Source of the DNA: Pyropia yezoensis
Taxonomy: Eukaryota > Rhodophyta > Bangiophyceae > Bangiales > Bangiaceae
Direction of reading: 5' to 3'
Length of the DNA stretch: 64,000 nt
Assembly: GCA_009829735.1 (NCBI GenBank)
Contig: CM020620.1
Span: forward strand, 13,327,420-13,391,419
The notes under the pieces were generated by a model that ran no database searches, was not told where the DNA came from, and was given only the letters and a program-made list of their open reading frames with translations. Below, piece by piece: positions 11,705 to 47,318 of the stretch. A program made the position numbers and the translations under genes. Each line of letters starts with the position of its first letter. Position 1 is the first letter of the stretch.

Positions 11705-13067
11705 TGCGTCGTTCTTGTCGTCGTCGTTGTCGCCGTCGCCGCCCCCGCGCCCACCACCACCACCACCACCACCGCCGCCGCCGCCGCCGCCGCCGTCGGC
11801 GCTGTCGACGCCGTGGACGCCGTCGACGCCGTTGACACCGTCGCCGTCGTCGCCGTCCCTGTCGCTCCCGCTGCAGCGCGGCGGCGGCGGGGCGCCGTCG
11901 GCTGCTGCGGTGGCTGCGGCGGCGGCCGCCGCAGCAGCGACCGCGGCCGCCGCGTCGGCAGCGTCCGTGCCCCTGTCGCACCAGCCCGGCGGCGGCGGTG
12001 CGCCGTCGGCGGCCACCGCGGCGGCCGCCGCCCGCCGCACCCGCCGCGCCACCGACCGCCCGCCCGCCCCCGCCCGGCTGCCGGCGGGCGTGGCACGGCG
12101 CGGCGGCGCGGCCGACGCGGCGGCCCCGCCGGCGGCAACGGCGGCAGCGGCGGCGACGGCAGCGACGGCGGCGACGGCGGCGGCGACGGCGGCGACGACG
12201 GTGGCGGTGGCGGTGGGGGAGGCGGCACCGTCGCCGCCCCCCCCGCCCCCCTCCCCCCCTTCCTCCGTGTCGGGGAATGTGGCGGCGGGGAGCAGCTCGG
12301 CAACGTCCACCTCCACCGACCTGTGCCCCGTCTCCCCCGCCGCCCTCCCCGCCGACGCGGTGGCCGATTGGGACGCCTGGGCGGCCGCCGCGGGGCTCGC
12401 CGTGCCCCGTGCGGTTACCGTCGCCGCCGCCGCCGCCCCCCGCCTGCCCGCCGCCGGCAGCGGCAGCTGCAGCGGCAGCGGCGGCTCATCCCACCCCCGT
12501 TTCCCCCTCTCTGGCGGTGCCGGTGGCGGTGGCGGCGGCGGCGGCGGCAGCAGCCACTATGTAGCCGCCACCGCCGCAGCGGCAGCGGCGGCCGACGCCC
12601 GGGCGGCCGCCGCCGCCGCGTCGGCGACCGCCGCGGCGGCGGCGGTGGTGGTGGCCGCCCGCGGGCGGGTGGCGGCGTCGACGCGCCTCCGCGCGGCGGC
12701 CGACGCGGACGCGGCGGCGGCGCGGGCGGCGGCGGCCGCGGCGGCGGGGACGGCCGCCGCGCTGCGGCGGCGGGTGGCCAAGGCAGAGGCCGAGGCGGAC
12801 GCGCTCGGCGCCGCGCTCGCCGCGGCGGTCGCGCAGGTGGGGGTGGGGGTGGGGGGGCGGCGCCCAGGGGGGGGGAGGGGAGGGGGGGGGGGGGGGGTAC
12901 TGCCGCCGCCGCCGCGACTGGCGCGCGTGCGTGTGAGAGAGAGGGGGGGGGGGGGGGGGGGGGGGGCAGGCGGTGTGGGAAGGCCGTCCCTGGGTTGTGG
13001 GGGGGGGGGGGGGGGAAGACGGCGGGGGGGTGGGCGTGCACCCCGTTTAGCTTTTTTCTTACATTAG
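8995..13067 (+). CDS. Very long Ala/Pro/Gly-rich coiled-coil protein, frame change in a poly-G run
   Basis: Two plus-strand frames look like one gene. The first starts at the ATG at 8995 (MAPSAAAAAPAAATT) and stays protein-like to about 9950, ending in a short Ala-rich coiled coil (ADLRAARADADAAA...EAETEAASLRSLL). The second runs from the poly-G tract at about 9951-9970 to the stop at 13067, beginning with a basic patch (KRARRERE) and poly-Pro. In the first frame the sequence after the G-run degenerates to His-Arg repeats, the wrong-frame reading of CCGCCA repeats. One length change in the G-run would join them into a protein of roughly 1,350 residues. It has long Pro, Gly and Ala tracts, less repetitive islands (SINTPDGVLRVSRD; LSHAITRVASDFDD; ADAVADWDAWAAAAGL), and a second Ala/Arg coiled coil near 12580-12840. 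No known domain was recognised. Whether the change is a sequencing error, polymorphism or disabling mutation is not decidable here. Confidence 0.5.
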
Positions 13068-23036: not shown

Positions 23037-24894
23037 TTACACCCGCGAGAGAGTGACGCGGAGGCCCGCGGGGCGCATCGTAAACGCCGTCTCCTTGGTG
23101 ACCTGCCCCCCCGCGCGGGCCACCCGGTAGCGTGTCAGCAGTCGCACCATCACCGCCTTCCACTCAACGGCGCCCAGCTGCTGGCCGGGGCAGTTGCGGC
23201 CGCCCGCGCCAAACGCGGGGTGGGCGGTGCTGCCCGCACTAGCGGCCAAAGAAGGGGAGGTGCCAAGGTAGCGCGTTGGCATAAATTCATGGGGTGCCGG
23301 GAAGCGGGCCGGGTCGTGAAGAACAGGGTAGGGCGCAATGGCCACGGCTGTGCCCGCTGGGAGGACGCTCCCGTTGGACGGCAGCGTCACGTCGGTGGAG
23401 AGGCACCGCAGGGAGCCCAGCGGGACCGTCGGGTACTTGCGCAGCGTCTCGTTCCAAACGGCGGTGAGGTAGGGGAGGCGGCCATCGTGGTCGGCCGTGA
23501 GCGGCGTGTCGGCGGTGAGCGAGCAAGAGCGGAGCTCCTCCCGCACGCACGCCTCCACCGGTGGATTAAGGAGCAGCTCGTGTAGCGCCCAAGAGATGCT
23601 GTGCGCCTGCGCGAAGTGATGATCAGCGCCACGGGGAAGGAACACCGAAAAAGGAACACCAGCGGCCGATAAAACACCAAAGCGGTCGTAAGTAAACCCC
23701 ATCATGGTCATCTGTACCGAAGATGGGCCGGCCTCACGTACGTGCACCGAACCATCAGCCGCTAACAGACCGGCCATCTGTCTCCCTCACCAGTCAACGC
23801 CGGTGGCACCCACACGCGGTCCGCCAACGTACTGTTGAGTCAAACCCGCCAGCTAGGAAGATCATCACGTCGGCGGCCACCCGCCGGGGGCTTTCATAAA
23901 CCCCGCCTGAGGAGTCCAGGTCCGCCAGAAGGATGTCAAAGAGGTCCGCCGCCGGTGCCCTCGCCCGCGAGCCGTCCGCATACGCCGCCCGCCGGCGCGC
24001 CTCCATCGCACCCACATAGTTGACAAAAAAGTCGCCCGCCGCCCGCAGCGCCGCCACCGACCGCGGGGAGAAGAGCCCCGGTGCGGGCACGAACGACAGG
24101 TACTGGAGGCGGAAGAAGTCCGTGAGGGCGGCGCGCGCGCGACCATGCGCGTCGGCACCCACCCACGGTTCAGAAAACAACACCTCGTGGATGACGCCGA
24201 GCGTAAAGTCGACGAGTAGGCTGTCCACGTCGCACACCTCGCCCCCGCTGGCGAGCGCGTCCAGGCGACGGGTCCAGGAGCCAGTGGGGCCCAGCTGGTC
24301 ATTCACGACGCGCAGCACCGCGTCGGTGGTGCGGGGCCCAAGTAAGAAAGGCCCAACGAGCCGTCGAGCGGCAGCATGTCGCCGGTCGTCTAGCAGCACC
24401 AGGACGTCGGGGGTGATGGGCGTGCCAAAGTGCCGCATCGTTGGCCCATCCCGCGGCGGGTTGACTCGCACCTGTACATGCCGCACGTCTACGGGGTCGA
24501 CCAGGTGTACGACGCGGCGGCCAAAAAAGTAGACCTGGTAGTTGACTCCGTGGCCCACGGTCGCCTGCCAGTCGCAGAGGAGCTCGACAAGGCGCTTGGC
24601 GTTGCCGGCGCGAACATACGCGAGGAACAGGCCGGCCAACACCGAGTGCCCGCCGGTGCGTACCGTCGGCAGGGAGGTGCCGTGGAGGCCGAGCACGTCC
24701 GTTGCAAGCGGGGGCCACCCAACCGTGCCAGCCATCGCCGCCGCTAGAGCCACAGCCAGGACGGCCGCCCACCCCAATGGGCCAGTGGGCGCTAGTACCG
24801 CCGCGGCGGCGGCAGCAGCGGCGGCCGACGATACGGCCACAGCCGCAGCCGCGGTAGGGAGGGGAGGGAGAAGCACCCGCCGCGGGGCCACCAT
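23037..24894 (-). CDS. Cytochrome P450 monooxygenase, two exons
   Basis: Complement of join(23037..23606, 23833..24894), 543 residues. The N-terminus has two hydrophobic stretches (poly-Ala, then GWAAVLAVALAAAMAGTVGW) acting as membrane anchor. The I-helix signature VMIFLAGGFDST ends exon 1. Exon 2 continues AHSISWALHELLL, then the K-helix ExxR (ETLR, about 407-410), the PERF-like region (RFPAPHEFMPTRYL) and the haem loop FGAGGRNCPG with the ligand Cys near 493. The intron (23607-23832) interrupts exactly between the I-helix Thr and the following helix, phase 0, donor ACA|GTACGT, acceptor CGCAG|. The ATG at 24894 gives a usual P450 length; the frame is open to an earlier ATG at 25023, which adds 43 residues. 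The class of substrate (sterol, carotenoid, fatty acid) is not readable. Confidence 0.85.
23607..23832 (-). other. P450 intron
   Basis: 226 bp, phase 0. The minus strand begins GTACGTTGG and ends TCGCGCAG. Removing it fuses the I-helix motif to the expected next helix without loss, which supports both ends. Confidence 0.8.
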
Positions 24895-25213
24895 AATGAC
24901 TAGCACAGCGCAGCCGGCGTGGCCTGGTGGAGACGGCCTGTCCCCACAAGCCTGCCGAACAAGGCAGCTATCAGATATGAAACCAGCTGAGGCACACAGG
25001 CACTCCGAGAGGCAGCAACCCACCAGCCGTCATCGCCCCTACGCAGGAGAGTCCCGCTTCATGTCGCCGGTGGCCCAGGTACTCTCTCGCTCTCTTGGCG
25101 GGGCTTCGAGGGGGCGGGGGGAGGCACGCCAGCGCATGCCAACGTGGCGTGACATTGGTGTTGTATGCCCGCTTGTGCAAAAGGATTCGTCCGGTGTTGC
25201 AGACCGGCACGGC

Positions 25214-25220
25214 AAAAAAA
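25214..25220 (-). terminator. Pol III terminator of tRNA-Ala copy 1
   Basis: Seven consecutive T on the minus strand, three bases after the discriminator base of the tRNA. Confidence 0.75.
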
Positions 25221-25237
25221 CATTGGAGCAGCAGGGG

Positions 25238-25248
25238 CTACCTCGTTG
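25238..25248 (-). other. T-loop intron of tRNA-Ala copy 1 (11 nt)
   Basis: Minus-strand sequence CAACGAGGTAG, between ATCGAT and CCCCTG. Its removal restores a 7-nt T-loop and a perfect T-stem. The same position is interrupted by an unrelated 18-nt sequence in copy 2. Confidence 0.8.
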
Positions 25249-25270
25249 ATCGATCCCTGGACCTCGCGCA

Positions 25271-25296
25271 CTCACGGGACACCGGATTAGTGACCA
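25271..25296 (-). other. Anticodon-loop intron of tRNA-Ala copy 1 (26 nt)
   Basis: Located between A37 and T38. Near its ends it can pair with itself (TCAC with GTGA), giving a short hairpin. Removal restores a 7-nt anticodon loop on a five-pair stem. Confidence 0.85.
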
Positions 25297-25364
25297 TGCG
25301 AAGCGCGCACTCTACCACTGAGCTACAACCCCACATTCGTTCCGTGGTGGAATGTACGTACCAA

Positions 25365-25382
25365 TTTATACTGCACCTGTAC
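25365..25382 (-). promoter_or_regulatory. TATA-like box and ACCTGTAC box upstream of tRNA-Ala copy 1
   Basis: TTTATA (TATAAA on the gene strand) lies 33-38 bases upstream of the tRNA. Just beyond it ACCTGTAC occurs at 25375-25382. Copy 2 has a TATA-like word at the same distance and the identical ACCTGTAC octamer. This suggests upstream elements used with the internal A and B boxes by RNA polymerase III. Confidence 0.5.
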
Positions 25383-26128
25383 GGCATCGTAAGGGAGATA
25401 CCGATGGCAAGCGCCAGGGCCATGGTCAATTGGTTCTTTGGGGGAGGGGGCGAGCGGGGGAGCAGGGATGGGGGTGGTGGCGAGCGTGCAGGCAGGCGGC
25501 AGGCGCTCTTATGTTCAGGTTTGGTGGTTGGTAGCCTGGCACGTGTTGTGGTGGGTGGTTTTGCTGCAGCGGGGCGTGAGATCGGTGGGGGTGGGGCAAT
25601 GGGGGTGAGGGTTGAAGGGTTTGTGGGGGTTGGGGCGGAGGTGGCACGCTCTCCCCCGCAGCTGCTGTGTGTAGAGGAGGAGGTGGTGGTGGTGGTGGTG
25701 GCACCGGCAGGTGTGGTGAGAGGGCGGGCAAGTGGGGGCGGTGAGGAGGGCGGAGGCATTGGCCGGCAGGTGGGAGAATGGGCAGGTGGACAGAGTCAAG
25801 GAGGAGATCAAGGGGGGAGAGGTGGGGGACGATGGTGGCAGGGTCCGGCAGCCGGGGCAGAGGGGCAGGTGGTCAGAGGCAGGGGGAGGAAAAGGGGTGG
25901 GGGAGGGGAGTGGGAAACACTGCCGTTTCGAGCTGCCGGCCAGCTGGTGGGGCGCGCTAAAGGCGGGAGGGGAGCTGGTCTGCGCCCCATTCCACTGCGT
26001 TGCGCGCCTTCCTCTTCCAAAGGATGACCTGTATATATATGGTGGTGCCATCTCTTCGAAAACAAGTAACGGCTGCCGGGGGCAGTGACATGTACGGTGC
26101 TGAACGTGTGTTCACATATGGAAAGCGC

Positions 26129-26133
26129 AAAAA
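26129..26133 (-). terminator. Pol III terminator of tRNA-Ala copy 2
   Basis: Five consecutive T on the minus strand, seven bases after the discriminator base. Confidence 0.65.
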
Positions 26134-26154
26134 GGATATTTGGAGCAGCAGGGG

Positions 26155-26172
26155 CAATCGTACCACAGATGC
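26155..26172 (-). other. T-loop intron of tRNA-Ala copy 2 (18 nt)
   Basis: Minus strand GCATCTGTGGTACGATTG, between positions 59 and 60. The intron's ACGAT can pair with the exon's ATCG just upstream, a helix of the kind tRNA-splicing endonuclease could use. This is only a hand check. Confidence 0.8.
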
Positions 26173-26194
26173 ATCGATCCCTGGACCTCGCGCA

Positions 26195-26217
26195 CCTGCG
26201 GACACATTTCGTGTTCT
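26195..26217 (-). other. Anticodon-loop intron of tRNA-Ala copy 2 (23 nt)
   Basis: Canonical 37/38 position. It contains ACAC and GTGT separated by five bases, a possible small hairpin analogous to the one in copy 1 but with different sequence. Confidence 0.85.
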
Positions 26218-26253
26218 TGCGAAGCGCGCACTCTACCACTGAGCTACAACCCC

Positions 26254-46253: not shown

Positions 46254-47318
46254 CAGGTCGTGCGCAATCGCCAGCGCGGCCTGGGCTGGGATTCGATTGT
46301 GGACCACGCCGGGTGCAGCCTCAGAGCCGCCCATCAATGGTGGGAGAATTTCGAGCGGAACGGGTCGCCATGGAATGATGACTGTATTCAGAATCAGCAT
46401 GCGGACTCCGCTCGCTTTAACGCAACCTTTCTCCGAGCGCTGAACAGCCTCGTGACTGCCCACCCTGAGATTTTTTTGCGTGAACTATCGTCTCTCTTTC
46501 AACGACTGGAGGAGCTTCCCGACTGGAACCGCAGCTGGCCGACGAGCGTGACGACGCTGGGGCTGATGCTTCGGCAGATCGGCTATTCAGTCAAGAAGGA
46601 GGAGCGGCTGGCGAGCAAACGGTGCCTGGAGCGGATGGTGGACCACTGCCGGCTGATGAGGCACATCCCTGACAGATGCATTGTGGTTGCCGATGAAACC
46701 CACATCAAGGGTGATGCAATGGTGCGACCTCGGGGCCGCGCCAAGGTGGGTTTTCCGTTGGAGGCGCTGGCTCCTGATCCGAGGGCGACCAAGCGGTTTT
46801 CTTCTATTGTCTCTATCTCTCACTCTCGGGGAATTTTGGAGCTGTCGGTCAACGAGGTGCCCCCTGCTCAAGGTGGCGATGACTGGGCGCTTTTTTGCAC
46901 GAGCCTGGCTACACGTATGAACTCGTATGTGCCGGGGGCTTTGTGGGCCGATCAGCCAGATGACTGTGTGCTTTTGTATGATAATGCCTCTGTACACACA
47001 GCGTTAGCAGATGAGATCCTCAGTATGAACGGTGTCTTTTTGCTTCGCTTGCCTCCTTACTGCCCTAACCTGTCTGCCGTGGAGCCCACCTTTGCGGACT
47101 ACAAACGCGGGGCGCGCAACATTGCGTACCATCATCCTGATCTTCCCCACCGACTTCTCCATGTGCTATCATTCGCTTCGATTCCCCTTGCCACCATCCA
47201 AGGCCATTACCGGGAAGCGCGGCGAGAGATGTGGCGGCACCTACCGGAGCTCACCGGCCCTGGAGCCCCTCTGGAAGGTGTGCTGCGTGCCCTACCGGTT
47301 GAGTTGGCACCGCCCTGA
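46254..47318 (+). CDS. Tc1/mariner (IS630 superfamily) transposase, nearly intact
   Basis: About 355 residues. The N-terminus begins inside a helix-turn-helix (QRGLGWDSIVDHAGCSLRAA, followed by WWENFERNG), so 15-20 residues are missing or lie in an upstream exon; the frame opens just after TGA at 46251, and CTGACAG|GTC could be a splice acceptor. The DDE catalytic domain is complete: VVADETHIKG (D145 counted from 46260), LLYDNASVHTA (D241) and PPYCPNLSAVEPTFADYK (E275), with 33 residues between the last two. The protein would cut and paste DNA at TA sites. No terminal inverted repeats were recognised around it. No internal stop is seen, so the copy could be active or recently so. Confidence 0.85.
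   Translation, partial: QVVRNRQRGLGWDSIVDHAGCSLRAAHQWWENFERNGSPWNDDCIQNQHADSARFNATFLRALNSLVTAHPEIFLRELSSLFQRLEELPDWNRSWPTSVTTLGLMLRQIGYSVKKEERLASKRCLERMVDHCRLMRHIPDRCIVVADETHIKGDAMVRPRGRAKVGFPLEALAPDPRATKRFSSIVSISHSRGILELSVNEVPPAQGGDDWALFCTSLATRMNSYVPGALWADQPDDCVLLYDNASVHTALADEILSMNGVFLLRLPPYCPNLSAVEPTFADYKRGARNIAYHHPDLPHRLLHVLSFASIPLATIQGHYREARREMWRHLPELTGPGAPLEGVLRALPVELAPP

Follow-up and report, generated by a model that had tools for sequence, protein, structure and literature searches.

Two tandem tRNA-Ala(CGC) genes on the minus strand of a 64,000-nucleotide stretch of the Pyropia (Neopyropia) yezoensis genome (hereafter, the window) are each interrupted twice, in the anticodon loop at position 37/38 and in the T-loop at position 59/60. 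Because of this extra intron at 59/60, both genes fall outside the canonical eukaryotic class, in which an intron occurs only at 37/38. Our reading, to which we assign a probability of about 0.9, is that the two genes are probably functional nuclear tRNA genes, and that the 37/38 intron and the ectopic 59/60 intron are both of the bulge-helix-bulge (BHB) type seen in archaea and in the red alga Cyanidioschyzon merolae.

The features of the two genes, which lie about 0.8 kb apart, are listed in Table 1. An earlier note on this DNA had claimed that removal of the two inserts from either copy leaves one and the same 72-nt tRNA-Ala(CGC), and the same insert sizes (26 + 11 and 23 + 18 nt) were obtained when both copies were measured again. 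The perfect anticodon and T stems, the G3-U70 pair and the CGC anticodon that it described are likewise present in the parsed sequences; a U6/U67 mismatch in the acceptor stem, which leaves six of seven pairs, is absent from that note. Inserts notwithstanding, the genes match the Rfam family RF00005 at 38.7 bits (copy 1) and 38.3 bits (copy 2) against a cut-off of 29, and neither was called in an ARAGORN scan of the window. A 5′ pattern of 23 letters (19 specified bases, up to three mismatches) gives two matches in the window against 0.01 expected from shuffled sequence, and the pair is not due to chance. A run of seven T (copy 1) or five T (copy 2) follows within about a dozen bases of each 3′ end.

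Table 1. Positions of the two tRNA-Ala(CGC) genes and their associated features in the window.
Feature	Position	Strand	Size and basis
tRNA-Ala(CGC) copy 1, exons and two introns	25224..25332	-	109 nt, mature 72 nt; RF00005 and cloverleaf parser
Copy 1 anticodon-loop intron, 37/38	25271..25296	-	26 nt; measured
Copy 1 T-loop intron, 59/60	25238..25248	-	11 nt; 3/4 BHB helix pairs possible, relaxed motif
Copy 1 T7 run, likely Pol III terminator	25214..25220	-	sequence and group TTTT statistics
Copy 1 upstream stretch, about -50 to -21, possible TATA-like promoter	25353..25382	-	position and AT-richness of parsed genes as a group
tRNA-Ala(CGC) copy 2, exons and two introns	26141..26253	-	113 nt, mature 72 nt; RF00005 and cloverleaf parser
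Copy 2 anticodon-loop intron, 37/38	26195..26217	-	23 nt; measured
Copy 2 T-loop intron, 59/60	26155..26172	-	18 nt; 4/4 BHB helix pairs, seen in local T-arm fold
Copy 2 T5 run, likely Pol III terminator	26129..26133	-	sequence and group TTTT statistics

Other features of the window include cytochrome P450 gene pieces beside tRNA copy 1 (23040-25029, minus strand; 138.5 bits at 23040-23786 and 20.0 bits, below the cut-off, at 23797-25029), a DDE_3 transposase ORF (46254-47318) and a retrotransposon-like integrase with a chromodomain match below the cut-off (991-2187). An ARAGORN call of tRNA-Arg in GC-rich DNA at 12729-12824 is accompanied by no Rfam match and is probably false. In the genome as a whole, LHC genes gave 14 matches.

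The Ala family in the genome consists of 18 genes, eight Ala(CGC) and ten Ala(AGC), and the same 18 are obtained with an exact 18-base pattern and with a 24-base stretch of the 5′ exon allowing up to three mismatches. The anticodon intron is found in 18/18, and the T-loop intron in six of the eight Ala(CGC) and seven of the ten Ala(AGC) genes (by cloverleaf parser, with locus L023 read by eye). The mature 72-nt sequence is identical in all eight Ala(CGC) genes, which carry eight different anticodon introns and six different T-loop introns. Two of them (L010 and L012) have no T-loop intron and exons identical to those of the other copies, and should picture the expected product of T-loop splicing. 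The earlier note held that an intronless tRNA-Ala(CGC) elsewhere, with no expression from this locus, would tell against its reading; among the eight genes recovered by the genome pattern search, every one has an anticodon intron and two are free of a T-loop intron, so the window pair alone is no proof that T-loop splicing is needed. That need would be better argued by Asp(GTC), Lys(TTT), Leu(TAA) and Glu(TTC) than by Ala. The Ala genes make up a minor share of a pattern of T-loop introns that extends across the genome.

Among 99 genes resolved by the parser, T-loop introns occur in 37, anticodon-loop introns in 33 and D-loop introns in 10 (T-loop only, 21; anticodon and T-loop, 16; D-loop only, 9; D-loop and anticodon, 1; anticodon only, 16; intronless, 36), and an intact cloverleaf is left when introns at more than one site, including the D- or T-loop, are removed. 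These 99 genes are a pattern-based sample of part of the isotypes, drawn from family and pattern searches and fetched loci, and no census. The parser gave 0 matches in 186.5 kb of shuffled sequence and was silent in 31 of 129 sources, several of which hold tRNA-like sequence by eye (Ala at L023; Trp at L027, L037 and L044; L043; 13 Asp copies without the acceptor strand), so that 99 is a lower bound for these loci. Three further Leu(CAG) loci and the Asp place L141 are also readings by eye outside the 99. A genome search with RF00005, in which 63 of 1453 candidates were scored and the two window genes were missed, cannot be used for a complete count; its list also lacks intronless genes for Leu(AAG) and Pro(AGG), and ARAGORN misreads some intron-bearing tRNA genes.

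T-loop introns are distributed over 12 anticodon classes and all three large contigs, and in nine classes every copy found has one. Besides Asp(GTC), these are Leu(CAG) (7/7, four parsed and three by eye), Ser(CGA) (4/4), Pro(CGG) (3/3), Pro(TGG) (2/2) and the single genes for Lys(TTT), Leu(TAA), Glu(TTC) and Val(TAC). For tRNA-Asp(GTC), 21 places with up to three mismatches were found by a pattern that would miss copies with a D-loop intron; all were read, and all 21 carry the T-loop insert. Seven are intact genes (7/7 with the T-loop intron) and 14 are without the 5′ acceptor strand (14/14 with the insert); at L141 bases of the anticodon loop are changed as well. Since many tRNA genes, including every tRNA-Asp gene found, have a T-loop intron, P. 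yezoensis probably depends on its removal to make proteins.

D-loop introns are located near position 20/21 in Lys(CTT), Arg(TCG), Arg(CCG), Arg(CCT) and, by eye, Trp (L025, L117, L118, L035, L044, L064-L068 and L070), and all five Arg(CCG) copies found have one. A repeated tRNA gene cluster at G000:C3:12654300-12773400 contains Leu(CAG) with T-loop introns at six places, interleaved with 87-nt tRNA matches, three of which were fetched and are Lys(CTT) with D-loop introns; the two apparently were amplified jointly.

The tRNA-Asp copies are also associated with a repeated element of about 7.3 kb (L139 at G000:C1:32051900-32060000; L119-L134, L136 and L141), which contains an ORF resembling a reverse transcriptase (Pfam RVT_1 at 21.6 bits, under the cut-off); a PDB search with this ORF returned no meaningful match. 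In arrays, the 5′ end of the element comes immediately after a tRNA-Asp, whether intact or truncated, and in 14/14 truncated copies the near-constant end of the element is joined to tRNA-Asp at position 7/8. Three terminal Asp copies (L125, L132 and L136) have different introns and different flanks. This arrangement suggests an element that targets tRNA-Asp and, by bringing along positions 8-72 with a T-loop intron, rebuilds the gene.

The boundaries of the T-loop introns are uniform. The earlier note had placed the second intron between positions 59 and 60, and this is the sole placement common to all 36 distinct T-loop introns (10-28 nt), five of which are known only from truncated Asp copies. 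When exon positions 54-57 are set against intron positions -6 to -3, 115 of 144 possible pairs form over the 36 introns, with four pairs in 13 introns, three in 17 and two in 6 (at least three of four in 30/36). Shuffled introns give 59.2 +/- 5.4 pairs with a maximum of 80, and 0/20,000 shuffles reach 115. The result is retained with one intron per anticodon (37/48 pairs, 0/20,000 shuffles) and without the five introns from truncated Asp copies (100/124 pairs, 0/20,000 shuffles). This register is the best of 36, with a mean of 3.19 pairs; the next two, at 3.08 and 2.81, represent one-step shifts of that helix. On both the exon and the intron side, the helix in this register ends two nucleotides from the cut, the spacing of a BHB. 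The same register is found for 31 anticodon introns (84/124 pairs, 0/20,000 shuffles) and, more weakly, for eight D introns (23/32 pairs, 11/20,000 shuffles).

The composition of the intron end follows the exon in part. Intron position -5 is G in 35 of the 36 introns and faces C56. In tRNAs with A54 (n = 11), intron position -3 is T in seven, A in none and G in the rest, and in those with T54 (n = 25) it is A in 12, non-pairing C in 8, G in 4 and T in 1. The covariation of -3 with exon 54, T against A, has a Fisher p = 1.0e-4, although the paralogues are non-independent and the p-values are optimistic. Introns swapped between isotypes average 107.7/144 pairs and reach 115 in 151/20,000 trials, so the pairing is due mostly to an intron end common to all isotypes, with a smaller isotype-specific part.

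Folding gives a mixed picture. The earlier note proposed that a BHB be sought by folding both T-loop junctions: the motif appears for copy 2 in a local fold of the T-arm, and it is absent for copy 1 and from the whole precursors of both genes. In unconstrained minimum-free-energy folding of these two precursors, no T-arm BHB formed, and pair probabilities of the helix were at most 0.06 (copy 1) and 0.00 (copy 2). With the T-arm folded alone, the stem and at least three helix pairs form in 10/36 introns, copy 2 among them and copy 1 outside, compared with a mean of 0.65 and a maximum of 2 in 20 rounds of shuffling. The motif of copy 1 is weak, relaxed at best, with one G-U wobble among its three pairs. 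As a group, the T-loop introns have a BHB or relaxed BHB at their exon-intron junctions.

Signals for transcription flank these genes. TTTT occurs within 40 nt downstream of 36/37 genes with a T-loop intron and 56/62 other genes, compared with 250/2380 random 40-mers, and in the parsed genes AT content rises to 0.65-0.75 between -50 and -21, compared with 0.37 for the larger loci. A TATA-like stretch upstream and a T-run downstream are therefore present by sequence, the TATA function itself being putative. The genome also encodes two tRNA_int_endo domains. The stronger (67.2 bits) is closest in the PDB to a Sen34 chain, and the weaker (35.6 bits) to a Sen2 chain. Tyr and His are aligned in both the Sen2 and Sen34 alignments and Lys in the Sen34 alignment, residues which we take to be the catalytic triad of these enzymes. 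The Sen2-like protein, 81% identical over 89% of its length to a Pyropia vietnamensis protein, is evidence that the genes are nuclear and red algal, as those of C. merolae are.

The pathway that we propose starts from a precursor in which T-loop exon bases 54-57 would pair with intron bases -6 to -3, forming a 4-bp helix stacked on the T stem and flanked by two bulges that hold the 5′ splice site (58-59/i1) and the 3′ splice site (i-2, i-1/60). A Sen2/Sen34 tRNA-splicing endonuclease may cut both bulges, acting without the usual measuring of the tRNA body, and a tRNA ligase would join the exons. The T-loop intron would be removed before the anticodon intron; we infer both the splicing itself and its order. 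The B box is given as positions 52-62 in the cited literature and is thus split by the 59/60 intron, for which an upstream AT-rich promoter may compensate. That the host has an endonuclease able to cut the T-arm, as the earlier note had supposed, is supported by the identical-exon paralogues without a T-loop intron, the one splice position, the BHB pairing with its covariation, and the Sen2- and Sen34-like genes. In C. merolae, Sen2, Sen34 and Sen54 are described with no detectable Sen15, the endonuclease may act on ectopic sites as Sen2-Sen34 alone (PMC4090602; PMC3978253), and the 37/38 motif is reportedly processed last (PMC3978253); this enzyme model and order may carry over to P. yezoensis by analogy.

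Three other explanations of the inserts were weighed. The T-loop insert could be retained, giving a mature tRNA with an enlarged T-loop that the ribosome tolerates, with removal of the anticodon intron only. The free whole-precursor folds, in which the splice motif is absent, agree with this. However, the inserts differ between Ala(CGC) paralogues whose exons are identical, their ends can pair with the T-loop in the register of a BHB, and two paralogues (L010 and L012) have no such insert. An insert at 59/60 would also disturb the contact between D-loop and T-loop in every tRNA-Asp found, which counts further against retention, and we regard it as improbable.

Marginally less probable still is that the genes with a T-loop intron are pseudogenes and that intronless copies elsewhere supply the tRNA. 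The two of eight Ala(CGC) copies without a T-loop intron could suffice for that isoacceptor, the genome search is pattern-based and non-exhaustive, and 14 of the 21 Asp places are without the 5′ acceptor strand. Against decay stand the exons, which are identical in 8/8 Ala(CGC) genes despite differing introns, the TTTT downstream of 36/37 T-intron genes, and the presence of the intron in 7/7 intact Asp copies and in all copies found of eight other anticodons. Errors of assembly or sequencing, or contamination as the source of the contig, are barely credible as explanations: no point in their support was found, and 36 different inserts share one position in genes spread over the three large contigs. 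Functional genes spliced at both sites remain the preferred reading.

Ectopic tRNA introns as a kind are already known from C. merolae nuclear genes and the Guillardia theta nucleomorph. In openly licensed PMC literature, no earlier description was found of nuclear tRNA introns in Bangiales that are ectopic or lie in the T-loop, and by term search "tRNA" is absent from the main text of the P. yezoensis genome paper (PMC7423979). The apparent novelty lies in the lineage, in the scale, in the use of one T-loop site and in evidence that entire isoacceptor families would depend on T-loop intron splicing. A 2025 tRNAscan-SE survey of 50 plants gives 56 tRNA genes for its sole red alga (Pum), puts this alga in the top three for intron-containing tRNA genes, and describes longer tRNA genes as having larger D-, T- or variable loops (PMC12652284). 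The accessible text of that survey does not mention ectopic introns for its red alga; the larger loops would fit unrecognised introns there. Set beside the count of 56, the introns of P. yezoensis suggest that tRNA genes of red algae are incompletely annotated by standard methods. The natural intron-plus and intron-minus paralogues also offer a means of testing how splice sites beyond the anticodon arm are recognised by a eukaryotic endonuclease.

A wider reading can be put forward tentatively, at a little under even odds. T-loop splicing would be obligatory for translation in a multicellular, repeat-rich red alga with a large genome, in which all tRNA-Asp and several single isoacceptors have only T-loop-intron genes; ectopic BHB splicing would therefore be an ancestral red-algal trait and not a product of genome compaction in the Cyanidiophyceae; and a site-specific retroelement would carry the T-intron-bearing part of tRNA-Asp and rebuild the gene at insertion. 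C. merolae has been described as unique for its combination of permuted tRNA genes with various intron-containing ones, and genome reduction has been suggested to favour the permuted genes (Soma 2014; PMC3978253). Since D-, anticodon- and T-loop BHB introns occur in a multicellular red alga of 107 Mb, ectopic introns do not seem to require a compact genome.

Among known systems, C. merolae is alike in its nuclear genes with D-loop, anticodon-loop and T-loop introns, several per gene, with BHB motifs (PMC3978253, PMC4090602, PMC9602550), and in having a TATA-like or AT-rich stretch upstream of the gene, a T-run downstream of it, and both Sen2 and Sen34. It has permuted tRNA genes (PMC3978253), and its tRNA-Gly T-loop intron is listed at 55/56, whereas all T-loop introns found in P. 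yezoensis fit 59/60. Unlike C. merolae, P. yezoensis is multicellular, with a genome of 107 Mb of which about half is repeats (PMC7423979). It differs also in the presence or absence of the T-loop intron among Ala paralogues of identical exons.

The nucleomorph of G. theta is red-algal in origin. It resembles P. yezoensis in having D- and T-arm introns in an algal nucleus (Kawach et al. 2005, cited in PMC4090602 and PMC3978253), and the excision of some of them is described as confirmed by RT-PCR sequencing (PMC4090602, PMC3978253). Its insertions are given as 3-24 nt, many without a defined BHB, in contrast to the introns of 10-28 nt with a common helix in P. yezoensis. The ectopic tRNA introns of crenarchaea are similarly BHB-defined and located away from 37/38, and Thermofilum pendens has permutation junctions at 59/60 in the T-loop (PMC3978253). 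The archaeal systems operate with an archaeal endonuclease in an archaeal host, whereas P. yezoensis is a eukaryote with Sen2- and Sen34-like genes.
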